DNA of 33,136 nt from Candidatus Sulfopaludibacter sp. SbA3. Lineage in GTDB: Bacteria > Acidobacteriota > Terriglobia > 20CM-2-55-15. The stretch spans positions 1-33,136 of the forward strand of contig CAMBFR010000041.1 in the NCBI GenBank assembly GCA_945865815.1, given 5' to 3'. Every line of letters starts with the position of its first letter. The first letter of the stretch is position 1. Under the pieces are notes generated by a model. That model did not search any database. It was not told the origin of the DNA and saw nothing but the letters and a program-made list of their open reading frames with translations. The translations under genes were made by a program, and so were the position numbers. This document shows, one piece after another, positions 16,896-33,077 of the stretch.

Positions 16896-17735
16896 ATGAC
16901 GTCAGATAACGGCCGCACTGGTGGAAAATTCGAGAGGCTCGTCGAAATAATGGCGCAGTTGCGCAGTCCTGCCGGTTGTCCGTGGGACAAGGAGCAGGAC
17001 TTCAATTCTCTGAAGCCCATGCTGGTGGAGGAAACCTACGAGGTTCTCGAGGCGATCGATAATCGGGACTTCGAGGGACTCTCCGAGGAACTCGGCGACC
17101 TGCTTCTCCACATTGTCTTCAACGCCCAGCTCGCCAGGGAAGCCGGCCACTTCGATGTCAATACAGTCCTCGATGGCATCGCCGAAAAACTCATCCGGCG
17201 ACATCCTCATGTGTTTGGCAATGAGCAGGCGGGAACCGCCGAGGAAGTCCTGAAGAACTGGGAAGCGATCAAGGCGCAGGAAAAAGCCCTGAAGCTGAAG
17301 AACCGGACGCCCGAGCAGCGATCGCTTCTCGAAGGCATTCCCACCAAGCTGCCCGCGCTTCATGAAGCCCATCAGATTGCCTCTCGCGCGGCCCGCGTGG
17401 GGTTCGACTGGCCCGACGTGGAAGGTATCTTCGAAAAACTTCAGGAAGAAGTCATCGAATTAAAGGAAGTCATCGCGGAAGGGAACGGAGATAACGATCA
17501 GGACTTGAAAACGGCGCGGCTCGAAGACGAACTCGGCGACGTGATGTTCGTCATCGTCAACATCGCCCGATACCTCAGGATCGATTCCGAATCGGCGCTC
17601 AAGAGAGCCAACCGCAAGTTCAAAAAGCGCTTTCAGTTTATGGAAGCCGAACTGGCCGGGCAGGGGAAAGCGCTGGAGGCGACAACGCTTCAGGAGATGG
17701 AGGCACTCTGGCAAAAAGCCAAATCCGAGAGCTGA
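16896..17735 (+). CDS. mazG: Nucleoside triphosphate pyrophosphohydrolase MazG
   Basis: 279 residues with tandem MazG domains. The first (about 10-115) has CPWDKEQDFNSLKPMLVEE and the metal-binding EETYEVLEAID plus EELGDLLLHIVFNAQ. The second (about 150-255) has GFDWPDVEGIFEKLQEEVIE and DELGDVMFVIVNIARYL. It hydrolyses NTPs and dNTPs to monophosphates, lowering aberrant nucleotides and modulating stress responses. The start has no Shine-Dalgarno. The following GNAT reading frame overlaps its last 28 bases. Confidence 0.94.
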   Translation: MTSDNGRTGGKFERLVEIMAQLRSPAGCPWDKEQDFNSLKPMLVEETYEVLEAIDNRDFEGLSEELGDLLLHIVFNAQLAREAGHFDVNTVLDGIAEKLIRRHPHVFGNEQAGTAEEVLKNWEAIKAQEKALKLKNRTPEQRSLLEGIPTKLPALHEAHQIASRAARVGFDWPDVEGIFEKLQEEVIELKEVIAEGNGDNDQDLKTARLEDELGDVMFVIVNIARYLRIDSESALKRANRKFKKRFQFMEAELAGQGKALEATTLQEMEALWQKAKSES

Positions 17736-18433
17736 CCGGCATTGACGAATTCCGGAAATGTGTCGAAATCCAGCGGGAGTGTTTTCATCGTCCGGACATC
17801 GACCTGATCCCGGCAAGGTTCTATGTCGTGGTGAACTCCATGGGTGGACTGGTTCTTGGCGCGTTTGACGGCGACCGGCTGGTGGGGTTTCTCGCGACAA
17901 TGCCCGGCAGCCGCGATGGACACCCCTATTGGTATTCTCAGATGCTGGCTGTTGTGCCGGACCACTGGAGTTCCGGCATAGGCTCCGAACTCAAGCTGGC
18001 GCAGCGCGAGCGGGCGAGAGCGCGCGGCATTCAACGCATCGAGTGGACCTTCGACCCTCTCAGGGCCAGAAATGCGTACTTCAACGTACAGAAACTTGGC
18101 GCCATCGTCCGCCGCTATTACCCGAATCATTACGGGGAAATTCAGGGAACGCCGGATGAGGGTTTGGAGAGCGACCGCGTTGTCGCCGAGTGGTGGGTCG
18201 ATAAGCCACGGGTCATTCCCGGCCAGGACATCCGCCGGCTCTTCATTCCGGCAGATATTCAGTTCTTGAAGCGGCAGAGCCTGCCGTCCGCCAGGGACGT
18301 GCAGATGCGCGTGCGGGAACAATTCCTGAAAAACTTACAGGAAGACTATTTCGTCGCCGGTTTCGAACGGACTGACGAGTGGAGCGCTTACTTGTTCCTC
18401 CCGGGAGCCTCTCGTGTTCATCAGGAAGATTGA
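17708..18433 (+). CDS. GNAT acyltransferase, COG3375-like, with non-standard start
   Basis: The first ATG/GTG in frame is at 17828, but the conserved N-terminus continues upstream: SQIRELTGIDEFRKCVEIQR precedes VVVNSMGGLVLGAFDGDRL. The frame is open back into mazG, where a CTG at 17708 follows GGAGG (17699-17703); a CTG at 17732 overlapping the mazG stop is another option. From 17708 the protein is 241 residues. Family features: VVPDHWSSGIGSELKLAQRE (acyl-CoA loop), IEWTFDPLRARNAYFNVQKL, GAIVRRYYPNHYGE and DRVVAEWWVDKP. COG3375 members are often neighbours of N-acylamino acid racemases and include the succinyltransferase of the D-amino-acid conversion pathway. Its 3' end overlaps the racemase gene by 20 bases. 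The start is the uncertain part. Confidence 0.8.
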   Translation: MAKSQIRELTGIDEFRKCVEIQRECFHRPDIDLIPARFYVVVNSMGGLVLGAFDGDRLVGFLATMPGSRDGHPYWYSQMLAVVPDHWSSGIGSELKLAQRERARARGIQRIEWTFDPLRARNAYFNVQKLGAIVRRYYPNHYGEIQGTPDEGLESDRVVAEWWVDKPRVIPGQDIRRLFIPADIQFLKRQSLPSARDVQMRVREQFLKNLQEDYFVAGFERTDEWSAYLFLPGASRVHQED

Positions 18434-19523
18434 GCTCCGAGAACTGCAGATGCAGCTTCTGCAGCCTTTCGAGACCAGTTTCGGAGTGACACGCGAACGC
18501 CGCATCGTTCTCGTCGAGGTGACCGACGGCAAGCATACGGGCTACGGCGAGGTGACGGCCGGTGAAGGCCCCTTCTACAGCCACGAAACAACCGAGACGG
18601 CGTGGCACGTTCTTCGTGACTTCATCATTCCGAAAGCACTGGGCCGGGAAGCCGGCAACGCGGCCGGTTTTGCGCCCTTCTGGGCCGGCATTCGCGGTCA
18701 CAACATGGCAAAGGCGGGGCTGGAAACTGCCCTTTGGGACCTCGAAGCGAAGATGAAGGGCCTGCCACTTTGGAAGCTGCTGGGTGGAACGCGGGAGCGC
18801 ATCGACTGCGGCGTTTCCATCGGGATCAAGCCCACGATTGACGACCTGCTTGCCACCATCGACAGGGAGGTGCGCGCCGGATACCGCCGCATCAAAATCA
18901 AGATCAAGCCCGGATGGGATCTTAAAGTGATTCAGGAGGTACGGACCGCTTTCCCTAAGATTCTATTAATGGGCGACGCGAATTCCGCGTACACGCTTGC
19001 CGACGTCGATCTGTTCAGGAAGATGGACAAATACAACCTCATGATGTTCGAGCAGCCTCTGCATTATGAGGACATGGTCGACCACGCGGAACTTCAGAAG
19101 CAGATCGAAACGCCCATTTGCCTGGATGAATCCATACACTCGGCCGATGACGCCCGGAAGGCGATTCAGATCGGCGCCTGCCGGATCATCAACATCAAGC
19201 TTGGCCGTGTCGGTGGGCATAGCGAGGTCCGCGCCGTTCACGATGTGTGCAGGGACAATGGCATTCCGGTCTGGTGCGGCGGGATGCTGGAGTCTGGTAT
19301 CGGCCGGGCCCACAATGTGGCGCTTTCAAGCCTCCCGAATTTTTCGCTTCCCGGAGATGTTTCGGCAAGCAAACGGTATTGGGCCGAAGACGTTGTCAGC
19401 CCGCCGGTCGAAGTGTCGCCGGATGGCCAGATCAGCCAGCGTGCGGCGCCCGGTATCGGATTTGACGTGAAACAGGATCTGGTCGAGCGCCTGACGGTTC
19501 GAATCCAGCGATTTTCTCTATGA
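18414..19523 (+). CDS. menC: N-succinylamino acid racemase / o-succinylbenzoate synthase (enolase superfamily)
   Basis: 369 residues from a GTG with GGGAG 6 bases upstream. It has an enolase capping domain, then a TIM barrel with the KxK catalytic lysines (Lys161, Lys163 in IKIKIKPGWD). Metal ligands are Asp188 (MGDAN), Glu213 (FEQP) and Asp238 (LDES). Lys262 is in INIKLGRVGG, and the family segment CGGMLESGIGRAHN is present. This subgroup catalyses o-succinylbenzoate synthesis for menaquinone, racemisation of N-succinyl amino acids, or both. The adjacent COG3375 GNAT favours the racemase role; no other men genes are present. It overlaps both neighbours (20 and 4 bases). Confidence 0.88.
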   Translation: MFIRKIELRELQMQLLQPFETSFGVTRERRIVLVEVTDGKHTGYGEVTAGEGPFYSHETTETAWHVLRDFIIPKALGREAGNAAGFAPFWAGIRGHNMAKAGLETALWDLEAKMKGLPLWKLLGGTRERIDCGVSIGIKPTIDDLLATIDREVRAGYRRIKIKIKPGWDLKVIQEVRTAFPKILLMGDANSAYTLADVDLFRKMDKYNLMMFEQPLHYEDMVDHAELQKQIETPICLDESIHSADDARKAIQIGACRIINIKLGRVGGHSEVRAVHDVCRDNGIPVWCGGMLESGIGRAHNVALSSLPNFSLPGDVSASKRYWAEDVVSPPVEVSPDGQISQRAAPGIGFDVKQDLVERLTVRIQRFSL

Positions 19524-20824
19524 CGATTTTTGAAGCAGACTGGATCTGCCCGGTTACCGCGCCCGTTGTGCCGGGTGGCGCCATCGCCGTGGACGACGGG
19601 CGGATTACCGAAGTCGGTTCGACGGTCGATGCCGCGGCGGGAGCCGGCCGCGTTCGGTTTCCGGGCTGTGCGATCATTCCCGGCTTCGTCAACGCACATA
19701 CACACCTTGAACTGACCGTGCTGCGCGGTTTTCTGGAAAACCTGTCCTTCTTCCCCTGGCTTCGTGAGCTGATGCGCGCCAAGTCCCAGCTGACGCGCGA
19801 CGATTTTCTGGTTTCCGCGCGGCTCGGCTGCATTGAAGCGCTGGCAGCCGGCGTCACCACGGTAGGGGAAGTCATGGAGGTGGGCGCCTCATGGGATGCG
19901 ATGCGCGAGACCGGATTGCAGGGAATCGCCTACCAGGAAGTGTTCGGTCCGGCGGAGTCCATGGTTGAAGAGTCCATGTCGAAACTCCGGGAAAAAATCC
20001 GCCGATACCGCCCTCAGGAAACGCCGTTGCAGCGCATTGGTGTCTCACCGCATGCGCCGTACACGGTTTCGAGGAAGCTTTTTGAGGCCGTGCGCGACTA
20101 TGCCGCCCGCGAAGGATTACGCCAGACCGTGCACATCGCGGAGTCTGAGGATGAGTGCCGGTTCGTGCGGGATGGCCAGGGGCCATTTGCGGAGTTCCAC
20201 ACCCAGCGGGGCATTGCGGTCACCCCGTTCGGCATCAGCCCGATCGAATATTTGCACGGCATGGGAATGCTGACGCCGGAGATGCTTCTCATCCACGCGA
20301 TAGAACTGAGCGATCGAGACCTCGATATTCTTGAAGCCACGCATCCCACGGTCGTGCACTGCCCCAAGTCGAATGCCAAACTGGGCCATGGCATGGCTCG
20401 TGTCGAGGAGATGCTCCGGTCCGGACTGAACGTCGGTCTTGGCACTGATAGCGTGGCCAGCAACAACGTCGTCGACATGTTCGAAGAAATGAGATCCGCT
20501 GTGTTTCAGCAGCGAACCCGCACCGGGCGAATCGACTCACTCAAAGCCGCTTCCGCTTTCCGAATGGCGACGCTTGGCGGCGCCGAGTGCATGGGACTCC
20601 AGGCGCAGATCGGCAGCCTCGAAACCGGCAAGCGAGCCGACTTCGTGGTCGTGGACCTGAACGACCCGGCGCTGCAACCGGTCTACGACCCGATCGAGGC
20701 CATGGTGTATTCGGCTTCACGCCGCAATGTGCGGGCGACGTACATCAGCGGAAAAGAAGTGAAAATCGACGCGGACGCGCCTGTCCGGGAAGTTACTTCA
20801 ATTGCAGAGAAGCTGAGAGTTTAG
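19520..20824 (+). CDS. Amidohydrolase, deaminase-type (MTA/SAH or aminofutalosine deaminase-like)
   Basis: 434 residues, amidohydrolase superfamily. Metal-binding His60-Thr-His62 lies in FVNAHTHLELTVLRG. SPHAPYTVS, VHIAESEDE, HCPKSNAKLGHG and the catalytic Asp in VGLGTDSVASNN follow. C-terminal small-domain residues include GKRADFVVVDL. This is the ATZ/TRZ-MtaD pattern, which deaminates nucleosides or heterocycles; the HLELTVLRGFLENLSFFPW form resembles proteins annotated as aminofutalosine deaminases. The ATG overlaps the racemase TGA (ATGA), so it belongs to the same operon. It might instead hydrolyse the acylated product of the neighbouring pair; that is inference only. Followed by an intergenic repeat cluster and a terminator. 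Confidence 0.8.
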   Translation: MTIFEADWICPVTAPVVPGGAIAVDDGRITEVGSTVDAAAGAGRVRFPGCAIIPGFVNAHTHLELTVLRGFLENLSFFPWLRELMRAKSQLTRDDFLVSARLGCIEALAAGVTTVGEVMEVGASWDAMRETGLQGIAYQEVFGPAESMVEESMSKLREKIRRYRPQETPLQRIGVSPHAPYTVSRKLFEAVRDYAAREGLRQTVHIAESEDECRFVRDGQGPFAEFHTQRGIAVTPFGISPIEYLHGMGMLTPEMLLIHAIELSDRDLDILEATHPTVVHCPKSNAKLGHGMARVEEMLRSGLNVGLGTDSVASNNVVDMFEEMRSAVFQQRTRTGRIDSLKAASAFRMATLGGAECMGLQAQIGSLETGKRADFVVVDLNDPALQPVYDPIEAMVYSASRRNVRATYISGKEVKIDADAPVREVTSIAEKLRV

Positions 20825-21075: not shown

Positions 21076-21792
21076 CTACCTGGGACCCGGCGCGGGCGCG
21101 GCCGCGTCGGCGCCCTGGCCGGCAATCGGAGGCGGTGGATACACACCCATGCCGTGGTAAGCGTTCGAGTAGATGGACTGATAACGAATCCCGTTTCCGT
21201 TCTTGTCAACCCACCCCAGCGATTGCTGAAACAAGCCCGGCTCCGGGTATCCCTTTGGCACCGTGCCCTCCAGTATGTAGAGCTTGTTTTCGTGCATCGC
21301 AATGTAGGCGTACGTGCGGGACTCATCGGCGTTGTTGGTCAGTTGAATGAAATGCCCTTCAACCATGTCCTGCCAGTCCCAGACCAGGTTTGTGAGTTTG
21401 ACGTCCCGCTGCAGGAGCCTGAACGTCGCAAACACGATCGCCCCTCGCTCATCCTGCTTCCAGTATCCTGGCCCGATGACAGGGCCTGCGTTCGCGCGGC
21501 ATTGCGCATTCCCAGGCGGACATGCCCTGGAACGCTCGATGCCTTGCTGTTCGAGGCCGGTATAGTCGACAACGGTTATCGAGTAATGCTCCGAGCCCCT
21601 GTCGCCGCTGTACACACGCGCCGGGAGCATGTACTCCATTTGCGACTTCCATGTGGTTTCGGTCACCTTTGGCTGTCCCGGAAAGTTCACCCTGAAGCCG
21701 TCTTGCGTGTTGACGTACTCTTCCCATTGCTGGGCAGCCGCGGGCGCCGGCGCCAACAGCCCCAAAGCGAATAACAGTGCGGCCATGCGCAT
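21076..21792 (-). CDS. Secreted protein, paralogue B of a three-gene cassette
   Basis: 238 residues. Signal peptide about 1-21 (ends PAAAQ), then WEEYVNTQDGFRVNFPGQPK and VTETTW, YSITVVDYTG, a CPPGNAQC pair likely to form a disulfide, RGAIVFATFRLLQRDV, the shared VEGHFIQLTNNADESRTYAY, KLYILEGTVPKGYPEPGLFQ and a proline/alanine-rich C-terminus. The same blocks occur in the gene at 22235-22954, so the two are paralogues. The FPGQPKVTETTW opening is a recurring pattern in uncharacterised secreted proteins of soil bacteria. The ATG has an AGAGGGAG Shine-Dalgarno. Last gene of the minus-strand trio, 15 bases after the DUF6152 gene. Confidence 0.75.
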   Translation of the reverse strand: MRMAALLFALGLLAPAPAAAQQWEEYVNTQDGFRVNFPGQPKVTETTWKSQMEYMLPARVYSGDRGSEHYSITVVDYTGLEQQGIERSRACPPGNAQCRANAGPVIGPGYWKQDERGAIVFATFRLLQRDVKLTNLVWDWQDMVEGHFIQLTNNADESRTYAYIAMHENKLYILEGTVPKGYPEPGLFQQSLGWVDKNGNGIRYQSIYSNAYHGMGVYPPPPIAGQGADAAAPAPGPR

Positions 21793-22234: not shown

Positions 22235-22954
22235 TCACCGTGGGTTGGCGCCGGGAGCGTCAATCCGGCCTTGCCCCAGCTCCTGACCCGCGGTTCGGTT
22301 GACGCGCGTGGGCGCGGGGTAGTGGTTGGAGTAGAAGTCCAGATAGCGAAGGCCGACTCCCTTTTCATCGAGCCATCCCACCGATTGTTGAAACAGTCCC
22401 GGTTCGGGGTAACCCGCCGGGACAGTTCCCTCGATGATGTAGAGCTTGTTCTGGTGCATATAGACGCCTGCAAAGGTCCTGGATTTGTCGGCGTTGTTCG
22501 TGAGCTGCAAAGAGTGCCCTTCGACAAGGTCGACAAAATTCCACACGAGGCTCGTCACGCTGGCGTCACGCTTCATCAACTGCCATGTCGCGTAGAGAAT
22601 CGCGCCTCGCAGGTCGCTCTTCCAGTGTCCCTCGCCGCCGGCGGCTCCGCCGATGCATGTCTCGGCGCCCGCGGGGCACGTTTTGGACTTCTCAGTGAGT
22701 ATTCGCTGGATTTGGCTGTAATCGATCACGGTTACGGAGTAGCGGCTCTGGCCCTGCGCGGCGCTATAGATCCGTCCTGGCAGATCCGCTCCACGTTCCG
22801 ATCGGTACGTGGTTTCCGTCACCTTCGGTTGAGTCGGGAAGTTGCACGTGAAACGATCCTCCAGGCTCGCAAACTCAATCCATTCCTGCGCGAACAACGG
22901 CGCTGAAATGGTGAGCATAACGGCGGCCAGGAAAAATGGGATCAGTCGCCGCAT
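22235..22954 (-). CDS. Secreted protein, paralogue A of a three-gene cassette
   Basis: 239 residues from the ATG at 22952-22954, which has GGAGG 8 bases upstream; longer upstream frames lack a signal peptide. Signal peptide about 1-22 (APLFAQ), then WIEFASLEDRFTCNFPTQPK, VTETTYRSE, YSVTVIDYS, a CPAGAETC pair, RGAILYATWQLMKRD, VEGHSLQLTNNADKSRTFAG and KLYIIEGTVPAGYPEPGLFQ. It shares about half its residues with paralogue B across the whole mature length. First gene of the operon paralogue A-DUF6152-paralogue B. Function unknown. Confidence 0.75.
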   Translation of the reverse strand: MRRLIPFFLAAVMLTISAPLFAQEWIEFASLEDRFTCNFPTQPKVTETTYRSERGADLPGRIYSAAQGQSRYSVTVIDYSQIQRILTEKSKTCPAGAETCIGGAAGGEGHWKSDLRGAILYATWQLMKRDASVTSLVWNFVDLVEGHSLQLTNNADKSRTFAGVYMHQNKLYIIEGTVPAGYPEPGLFQQSVGWLDEKGVGLRYLDFYSNHYPAPTRVNRTAGQELGQGRIDAPGANPR

Positions 22955-23015
22955 TTTTCGATCCTCCTGTTCACTTTTCTGGTTCGTTTGGACCCTTATA
23001 CCACGAGTCGTGCAA

Positions 23016-31286: not shown

Positions 31287-33077
31287 ATGAAACGGTACAC
31301 ACAATTGGTTATCGCGGGAACACTGCTCGCATTCGTTGCCGGTTGCTCCTCTGAGCCAGCCGACGAAAAAACGGGTGGGGGCGGCGAAGCGACACCAGGA
31401 GCAGTCGCCGAAGTCACATTCTTTTTGGGCGCACGCCTGATTACAGGCGATGGAAGCGCTCCCATTGAGGAAGCCACTTTCATTGTGTCGAATGGGAAAA
31501 TCACAGCCATTGGGGCGAAAGGCGAGCTCAGGGCTCCCGACGGCGCGGGACGTGTGGACCTGGAAGGACAAACAGTAATGCCGGTGGTGGTCAACCTCCA
31601 CGGGCATGCCGGAATCAACAACGGTTCGACGACTGGATCTCAGAACTACAGTCGCGAATCCGTGCTGGCGGATCTCAATCGATACATCTATTACGGCGTC
31701 GGGGCCGTCGCTTTGCTGGGAACGGACTCGGGTGACATCATCTATGGGATTCGAGACGAGCAGCGCGAAGGCAAAGGTGGCAGCGCTCGAGTATTGACCG
31801 CGGGCCAGGGCATCACGGTCAGGGGCGGTTGGCCCGTTTCGATTCTGGGCAACATTCCAATCCAGGTATCTTCGGAAGCCGACGCTCGACAAGCGGTAGC
31901 CGGCCTCGCAGCCAAAAAGGTCGACTTCGTCAAGATCTGGGTCGACGACGATATGGGCCGCGTTCCGAAAATGAGCCCGGCAATCGCCAGAGCCATCATC
32001 GACGAGGCCAAAAAGAGTAGTCTCCGTGTTGTCGCGCACGTCTTCTATCTCGCCGATGCGAAGGAACTGGTCGCAGCCGGAGTCAGTGGACTTGTCCACA
32101 GCATCCGCGACCGCGAGGTCGACAATGCGCTGGTCGCTGAGATGAAAGAGAAAAACGTCTTTTACACGCCAACGCTCGTTGCCCACGAAGCCAAATTCGT
32201 ATATGCCGATGATCCGGACTGGCTTGGCGAGCAGACGATGCGTGAAGCGTACCCAGCCCAGCTTTCCGCCTATTATGCCAATGCCATCACGGTGAACAGA
32301 TACAAGAGAAACGCTGACGCGGATAAATTCCGCCAGCAATATGACATCGCAAAGCGGAATCTTAAAAAGATGGCCGATGGCGGTGTGAAGATCGGGCTCG
32401 GAACCGACAGCGGCACCGGCGGCGATTTTCCGGGCTACTTTGAGCATCGTGAGATGGAGTTGATGGTTTCTGCCGGCATGTCGGCATCCGACGTCATCAA
32501 GGCTGCAAGTGTCGTGTCTGCCGAAATCGCCGGTGTTGCCGATCTTGGAGGTCTGGCGGTTGGAAAGTCCGGAGATTTCTTTGTGCTAAACACCAATCCT
32601 CTGGATGACATCAAGAACACCAAGGACATTTTGTCAATGTACAGAAACGGTCAGGAAATGCAGCGCCTTCCCCTGATCCAGAACCTGACGATGGATGTTC
32701 CTTCAATCACCGACGCGGATCGGGCGGCAGACCGTGCGGCGGCAGTCCGCGAAGCTCAACTCGCGGCGGAAGCCAAGCTGGAACATTTCGGCAAGTTTGT
32801 GCTCGGCCCGTCCGCCAATGTTCGCGCAATGCCCATTCCGACCCCCAAGGGTTCCACTTCACGGATTGTGGCCGGCCCGCCGGACAGAATCACGGTTGGC
32901 CTGCGTGCCAGCGCGGCGGATCTGCGGCAGTTCTATACCGCTGCGCTTCCCAGATACCGCTGGACGCTCCAGGGCCAGTGCTGGGAACGGACACATCCGA
33001 TCTCGAATAAGACCCAGGTCCTCTGCGCCGATACGTCGGCGGCAAACAGCATCGTCCTCCAGATTTCCGAAAGGTAA
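31287..33077 (+). CDS. Lipoprotein amidohydrolase with extra C-terminal domain
   Basis: 596 residues. Signal peptide MKRYTQLVIAGTLLAFVAGC with lipobox Cys20 and a Gly-rich linker, so it is exported and lipid-anchored. The amidohydrolase barrel covers about 43-470: metal His105-Gly-His107 in VNLHGHAG, FVKIWVDDD with the candidate bridging Lys, VVAHVFY, GLVHSIRD and the catalytic Asp in IGLGTDSGTGG. These match imidazolonepropionase/prolidase-like exported hydrolases, often acting on peptides. The last 100 residues (about 497-596) form an additional domain with LRQFYTAALPRYRWTLQ and two Cys (QCWER, VLCAD) that may pair. Good Shine-Dalgarno AAGGAG. Substrate unknown. Confidence 0.85.
   Translation: MKRYTQLVIAGTLLAFVAGCSSEPADEKTGGGGEATPGAVAEVTFFLGARLITGDGSAPIEEATFIVSNGKITAIGAKGELRAPDGAGRVDLEGQTVMPVVVNLHGHAGINNGSTTGSQNYSRESVLADLNRYIYYGVGAVALLGTDSGDIIYGIRDEQREGKGGSARVLTAGQGITVRGGWPVSILGNIPIQVSSEADARQAVAGLAAKKVDFVKIWVDDDMGRVPKMSPAIARAIIDEAKKSSLRVVAHVFYLADAKELVAAGVSGLVHSIRDREVDNALVAEMKEKNVFYTPTLVAHEAKFVYADDPDWLGEQTMREAYPAQLSAYYANAITVNRYKRNADADKFRQQYDIAKRNLKKMADGGVKIGLGTDSGTGGDFPGYFEHREMELMVSAGMSASDVIKAASVVSAEIAGVADLGGLAVGKSGDFFVLNTNPLDDIKNTKDILSMYRNGQEMQRLPLIQNLTMDVPSITDADRAADRAAAVREAQLAAEAKLEHFGKFVLGPSANVRAMPIPTPKGSTSRIVAGPPDRITVGLRASAADLRQFYTAALPRYRWTLQGQCWERTHPISNKTQVLCADTSAANSIVLQISER

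Follow-up and report, generated by a model that had tools for sequence, protein, structure and literature searches.

The locus analysed here raises the question of whether an amidohydrolase whose gene overlaps that of a racemase works in the same pathway as the racemase, or only shares its operon. It lies in a stretch of 33,136 nucleotides (the window) that makes up contig C41 of a MAG from a soil acidobacterium; the MAG has 4.34 Mb and a completeness of 98%. A preliminary description of this DNA proposed that a GNAT acyltransferase and an N-acylamino acid racemase (NSAR) form the core of a known pathway, and that the amidohydrolase encoded after them either replaces the desuccinylase of that pathway or acts on an unrelated substrate, such as aminofutalosine. 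The sequence evidence favors the second proposal: we put the probability at nearly four in five that the gene at 19520–20824 encodes a 6-aminodeoxyfutalosine deaminase of the COG0402 type that serves menaquinone synthesis by the futalosine route and is separate in function from the GNAT–NSAR pair. The pair and the deaminase alike are members of kinds that are already known.

Gene order and the acyltransferase–racemase pair

The conserved block is opened by mazG (16896–17735, plus strand), which encodes a nucleoside triphosphate pyrophosphohydrolase (NF007113, 326 bits; cut-off 208). Its 3′ end is overlapped by the GNAT gene (17708–18433, plus strand), which in turn overlaps the NSAR gene (18414–19523, plus strand) by 20 bp. 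The amidohydrolase gene (19520–20824, plus strand) begins within an ATGA at 19520–19523, where the NSAR stop codon and the amidohydrolase start codon overlap. Both the overlapping arrangement of the three genes and the ATGA junction, as first described, were confirmed. The order mazG–GNAT–NSAR–amidohydrolase was also found in six related acidobacterial records (L027–L032, mostly gp5), with proteins 58–92% identical, and therefore is not due to chance; the ATGA-type junction is present in gp5 relatives as well. Conservation of mazG 5′ of the GNAT gene extends to gp5 records and Holophagaceae-like genomes. In one of the six records (L030:5104–7512), NSAR and amidohydrolase form a single stop-free open frame of 803 codons, the result either of a genuine gene fusion or of faulty assembly; the NSAR gene of L031, also among the six, is frameshifted. 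The amidohydrolase is probably co-transcribed with the GNAT–NSAR pair.

A GNAT gene was correctly placed at 17708 in the preliminary description, but the codon there is CTG and not a standard start. No ATG, GTG, or TTG lies directly 5′ of the conserved N-terminus in the GNAT frame (window 17690–17740), where CTG or ATC is available; the start is thus non-standard, either the CTG at 17708 or a nearby codon. In five of the six relatives (L027–L031) the matching start is an ATG shortly after the mazG stop, and the closest relative (L032) has no standard GNAT start either.

Elsewhere in the window, a second PF01979 amidohydrolase of 596 aa (31287–33077) is unrelated to the one at 19520–20824. The genes at 21076–21792 and 22235–22966 (minus strand) are neighboring paralogues, 53% identical across about 207 residues; the one of the two that was scanned, that of 21076–21792, matched no Pfam family.

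The racemase matched TIGR01928 at 354 bits (cut-off 200.65), and its best PDB matches were the N-acylamino acid racemases 2zc8, 1r0m, and 1sja. All of its catalytic residues are kept: K161 and K163 of the KxK motif, D188, E213, D238, K262, and R265, the last of which we take to be the NSAR-type arginine. The GNAT, placed in the COG3375 type by the preliminary description, was identified at the level of the fold family (PF00583, 6e-9), and it adjoins NSAR both in gp5 and in other families. The reading of the two genes as GNAT plus N-acylamino acid racemase holds. To judge from what is known of the NSAR pathway, the GNAT probably acts there as succinyl-CoA:D-amino acid N-succinyltransferase. Together the pair would probably N-succinylate and racemize D-amino acids, and an M20 enzyme whose gene lies at another locus would remove the succinyl group. 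As in the GNAT–NSAR–M20 operon of the Geobacillus kaustophilus type, the GNAT gene lies directly 5′ of the NSAR gene, and KxK, K262, and R265 are kept; unlike that operon, the window has a gene of the nucleoside-deaminase type in the place of M20, and mazG upstream.

The NSAR/OSBS family is known to be bifunctional, and TIGR01928, the model that the racemase fits, carries the title o-succinylbenzoate synthase. A role as the MenC (o-succinylbenzoate synthase) of the classical menaquinone pathway might be read from these two points, but we regard it as barely credible and rejected it. Because the host genome has no MenD above cut-off, NSAR is not needed there as MenC; futalosine genes are present in that genome, and the GNAT neighbor and R265 likewise argue for a racemase. 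Among the entries for Acidobacteria in the survey of Zhi et al. (PMC3914697), MqnA, MqnC, and MqnD are given for all five organisms and MenC matches for four of the five, with no MenF or MenB entries; as far as these entries go, the pattern fits NSAR rather than MenC. Racemases filed as MenC in Acidobacteriota genomes that use the futalosine route are thus likely to be misannotated.

Active site and family of the amidohydrolase

The third gene product had been described as a metal-dependent amidohydrolase of the deaminase type, and its family (PF01979, COG0402) and metal site bear this out. The site consists of HxH (H60/H62), HxxE (H205/E208), H259, HCPxSN, and D310 and is of the nucleoside-deaminase type; H60/H62, H205/E208, H259, and D310, which comprise the metal site and the purine-binding glutamate, are invariant in alignment A2. 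The COG0402 6-aminodeoxyfutalosine deaminases (DR0824, Nis0429, and H. pylori AFLDA), a type also named MqnX or MqnF, have the same HxH, HxxE, H, HCPxSN, and D site. The MTA/SAH/adenosine deaminases (PA3170, 4dyk; XCC2270, 4dzh; CV1032, 4f0r; and TM0936) share both the metal site and the fold. DR0824 and Nis0429 reportedly deaminate 6-aminodeoxyfutalosine, and the PDB names 7lkj/7lkk aminofutalosine deaminase; the structures are 2imr for DR0824, 3v7p/4m51 for Nis0429, and 7lkj for H. pylori AFLDA.

Comparisons of the whole protein, by sequence and by fold, placed MTA/SAH deaminases first (4dyk, with a TM-score of about 0.89), and as a whole the window protein is closer to these than to the 6-aminodeoxyfutalosine deaminases. 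Three finer comparisons pointed the other way. First, a FastTree tree built from 85 proteins united the window clade, DR0824, and the mqn-linked homologues; the split between this group and PA3170, XCC2270, and 26 further acidobacterial homologues had an SH-like support of 1.0. Second, the window protein and the 6-aminodeoxyfutalosine deaminases have in common a glutamate at position 140 (E140) and a long insertion that separates the third metal-site histidine from the fourth. E140 and a His205–His259 spacing of 54–63 residues were found in DR0824 and in 56 of 56 clade members, with a spacing of 54 in the window protein; in the 26 other acidobacterial homologues, PA3170, and XCC2270 the spacing is 37–38 and none has E140. 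Nis0429 has the glutamate and the HxxE...E...G.G-type motif at aligned positions as well, and H. pylori AFLDA has them with a single change. Third, when a profile made from the window clade only was restricted to residues 90–224, its top four PDB matches were DR0824 (2.6e-21), the two entries for Nis0429 (8e-13), and H. pylori AFLDA (3e-10), with all MTA/SAH deaminases behind them. The ranking of whole proteins by BLAST or fold was rejected as sole guide, its preference for MTA/SAH deaminases being in conflict with these finer tests.

Two further comparisons concern individual residues and scores. Ser145 of Nis0429 aligns with P144 of the window protein, and DR0824 also has a proline there. 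The NCBIfam aminofutalosine model NF006269, applied here to the window protein, gave it 198.7 bits, below the model's cut-off of 320.

E140 and the His–His spacing provide a simple marker that separates the two groups of deaminases. Generic labels such as chlorohydrolase or amidohydrolase, or labels as MTA/SAH deaminase, are likely misannotations where they stand on probable menaquinone enzymes of Acidobacteriota.

Operon sharing and pathway sharing

If the amidohydrolase worked in the NSAR pathway, by deacylating or by acting on a product in place of an M20 desuccinylase, its ATGA-coupled position, conserved in gp5 records, would be accounted for, and the in-frame fusion of L030 could hint at a common function. 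This role is highly improbable. The active site and the clade are those of deaminases, and the two genes are distributed independently. Same-class genomes of family f2, probably Holophagaceae, contain mazG–GNAT–NSAR without the amidohydrolase (L174, L177, L183, L187, L189, and L191); the amidohydrolase also occurs without NSAR, and in the phylum's other families its orthologues lie in unrelated contexts (YicC–guanylate kinase, SLT, and Memo). Among 199 genomes, the presence of NSAR was independent of that of the deaminase clade (p = 0.87, relatedness ignored).

No M20 gene lies next to NSAR at the window locus. In other acidobacteria, wherever NSAR had a hydrolase as its neighbor, this was an M20 that follows NSAR (L163, L164, L166, and L167), and a search of the host genome for such an enzyme, as had been suggested, located one on contig C12 that is 46% identical to the NSAR-linked M20. 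A desuccinylase role was rejected as improbable on the active site, the clade, the independent distribution, and the separate M20 together. From the NSAR genes without amidohydrolase, the unrelated contexts, the lack of association, and the M20 elsewhere in the genome, we conclude that the three genes probably have the operon in common and not the pathway. The preliminary interpretation thus stands in its assignment of GNAT plus NSAR and is well supported in its aminofutalosine alternative, but it finds no support for the replacement of the desuccinylase. Overlap of genes in one operon need not mean one pathway.

A third arrangement, in which a futalosine deaminase was captured into the gp5 mazG–GNAT–NSAR operon and became coupled to D-amino acid racemization, its clade having acquired a new substrate connected with N-acyl amino acids, strikes us as very improbable.

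Futalosine genes in the host and in the phylum

According to the preliminary description, nucleoside-specific residues together with an mqn set lacking its own deaminase would assign the amidohydrolase to menaquinone synthesis, and this is largely what was found. The host genome carries mqnA, mqnC, mqnD, and mqnE (contigs C34 and C26; loci L083 and L084), with MqnC at 487 bits (cut-off 428), MqnE at 489 bits (cut-off 434), and two PF02621 proteins of the MqnA/MqnD type; it has no other close COG0402 deaminase. With the deaminase-specific features, these genes give good support to the reading as an aminofutalosine deaminase. As a deaminase of this pathway, the amidohydrolase would convert aminofutalosine, formed by MqnE, into futalosine by metal-dependent hydrolytic deamination, a function separate from that of the GNAT–NSAR pair. 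In the host genome (about 98% complete) no MqnB-like futalosine hydrolase was found, the PF01048 proteins being PNP and MTAP only; futalosine may be hydrolyzed by PNP or MTAP, or mqnB may lie in the missing 2% of the genome.

As a point of difference from the 6-aminodeoxyfutalosine deaminases, the window gene lies in an NSAR operon and not in an mqn cluster, and no member of the window clade was seen inside an mqn operon. The larger superclade does show such linkage. In 16 other acidobacterial genomes (L091, L093–L095, L097–L101, L106–L110, L112, and L113) a superclade homologue 30–34% identical to the window protein adjoins mqnC or lies near it, usually directly 3′, and mqnA is on the same contig in all but one of the 16, wherever the contig extends that far. 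In a seventeenth (L090) the mqn genes are about 8 kb from the homologue, and in L094 the genes next after the homologue in the mqn cluster are those for UbiA and UbiE. Genes for mqnA/D were present in 50 of the 52 genomes with a superclade member (Fisher p = 4e-5, relatedness ignored), G161 and G185 being the two without, and in all 21 window-clade genomes (relatedness again ignored).

Deaminases of the PF00962 (adenosine deaminase) family are a second known route for aminofutalosine deamination. Among mqn-positive Acidobacteriota, PF00962 proteins and the COG0402 clade were strongly complementary: 8 genomes had both, and 85 and 42 had only one or the other (p = 1e-15, relatedness ignored). 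This is the pattern expected if either can supply the deaminase step. In a further 18 mqn-positive Acidobacteriota, neither a COG0402-clade protein nor one of PF00962 passed the thresholds applied.

The host has both kinds of protein. Its PF00962 protein, on contig C51, is divergent (TIGR01430, 176 bits, below cut-off). It might be the C51 protein that deaminates aminofutalosine, with the amidohydrolase acting as a broad deaminase of 5′-modified adenosines (MTA, SAH, and 5′-deoxyadenosine). The top rank of MTA/SAH deaminases in the whole-protein comparisons agrees with such a division of labor, as does the presence of both proteins in one genome despite the complementarity across the phylum. 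We nevertheless consider it unlikely. The amidohydrolase differs from the MTA/SAH deaminases in E140, in its spacing of 54 residues, and in its place on the other side of the clade split; PA3170 and XCC2270 lack both E140 and the insert and fall in a separate clade, and DR0824 is in the same clade as the window protein. In gp5, moreover, most of the PF00962 proteins are orthologous neither to one another nor to that of C51 (26–30% identity, the L198/L199 pair alone reaching 76%), whereas the amidohydrolase is constant. For this reason the amidohydrolase is the better candidate than the C51 protein for the deaminase of the futalosine pathway.

Two observations concern genes of the CofG/CofH type. 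In two of the mqn clusters (L094:3123–3971 and L110:3034–3945) a short protein of about 280–300 aa with a CofH_C domain precedes mqnA; no Radical_SAM domain was reported for these two proteins. On contig C18 of the host (L147), genes for CofG and CofH lie side by side, both above cut-off, which indicates FO/F420 synthesis in this acidobacterium.
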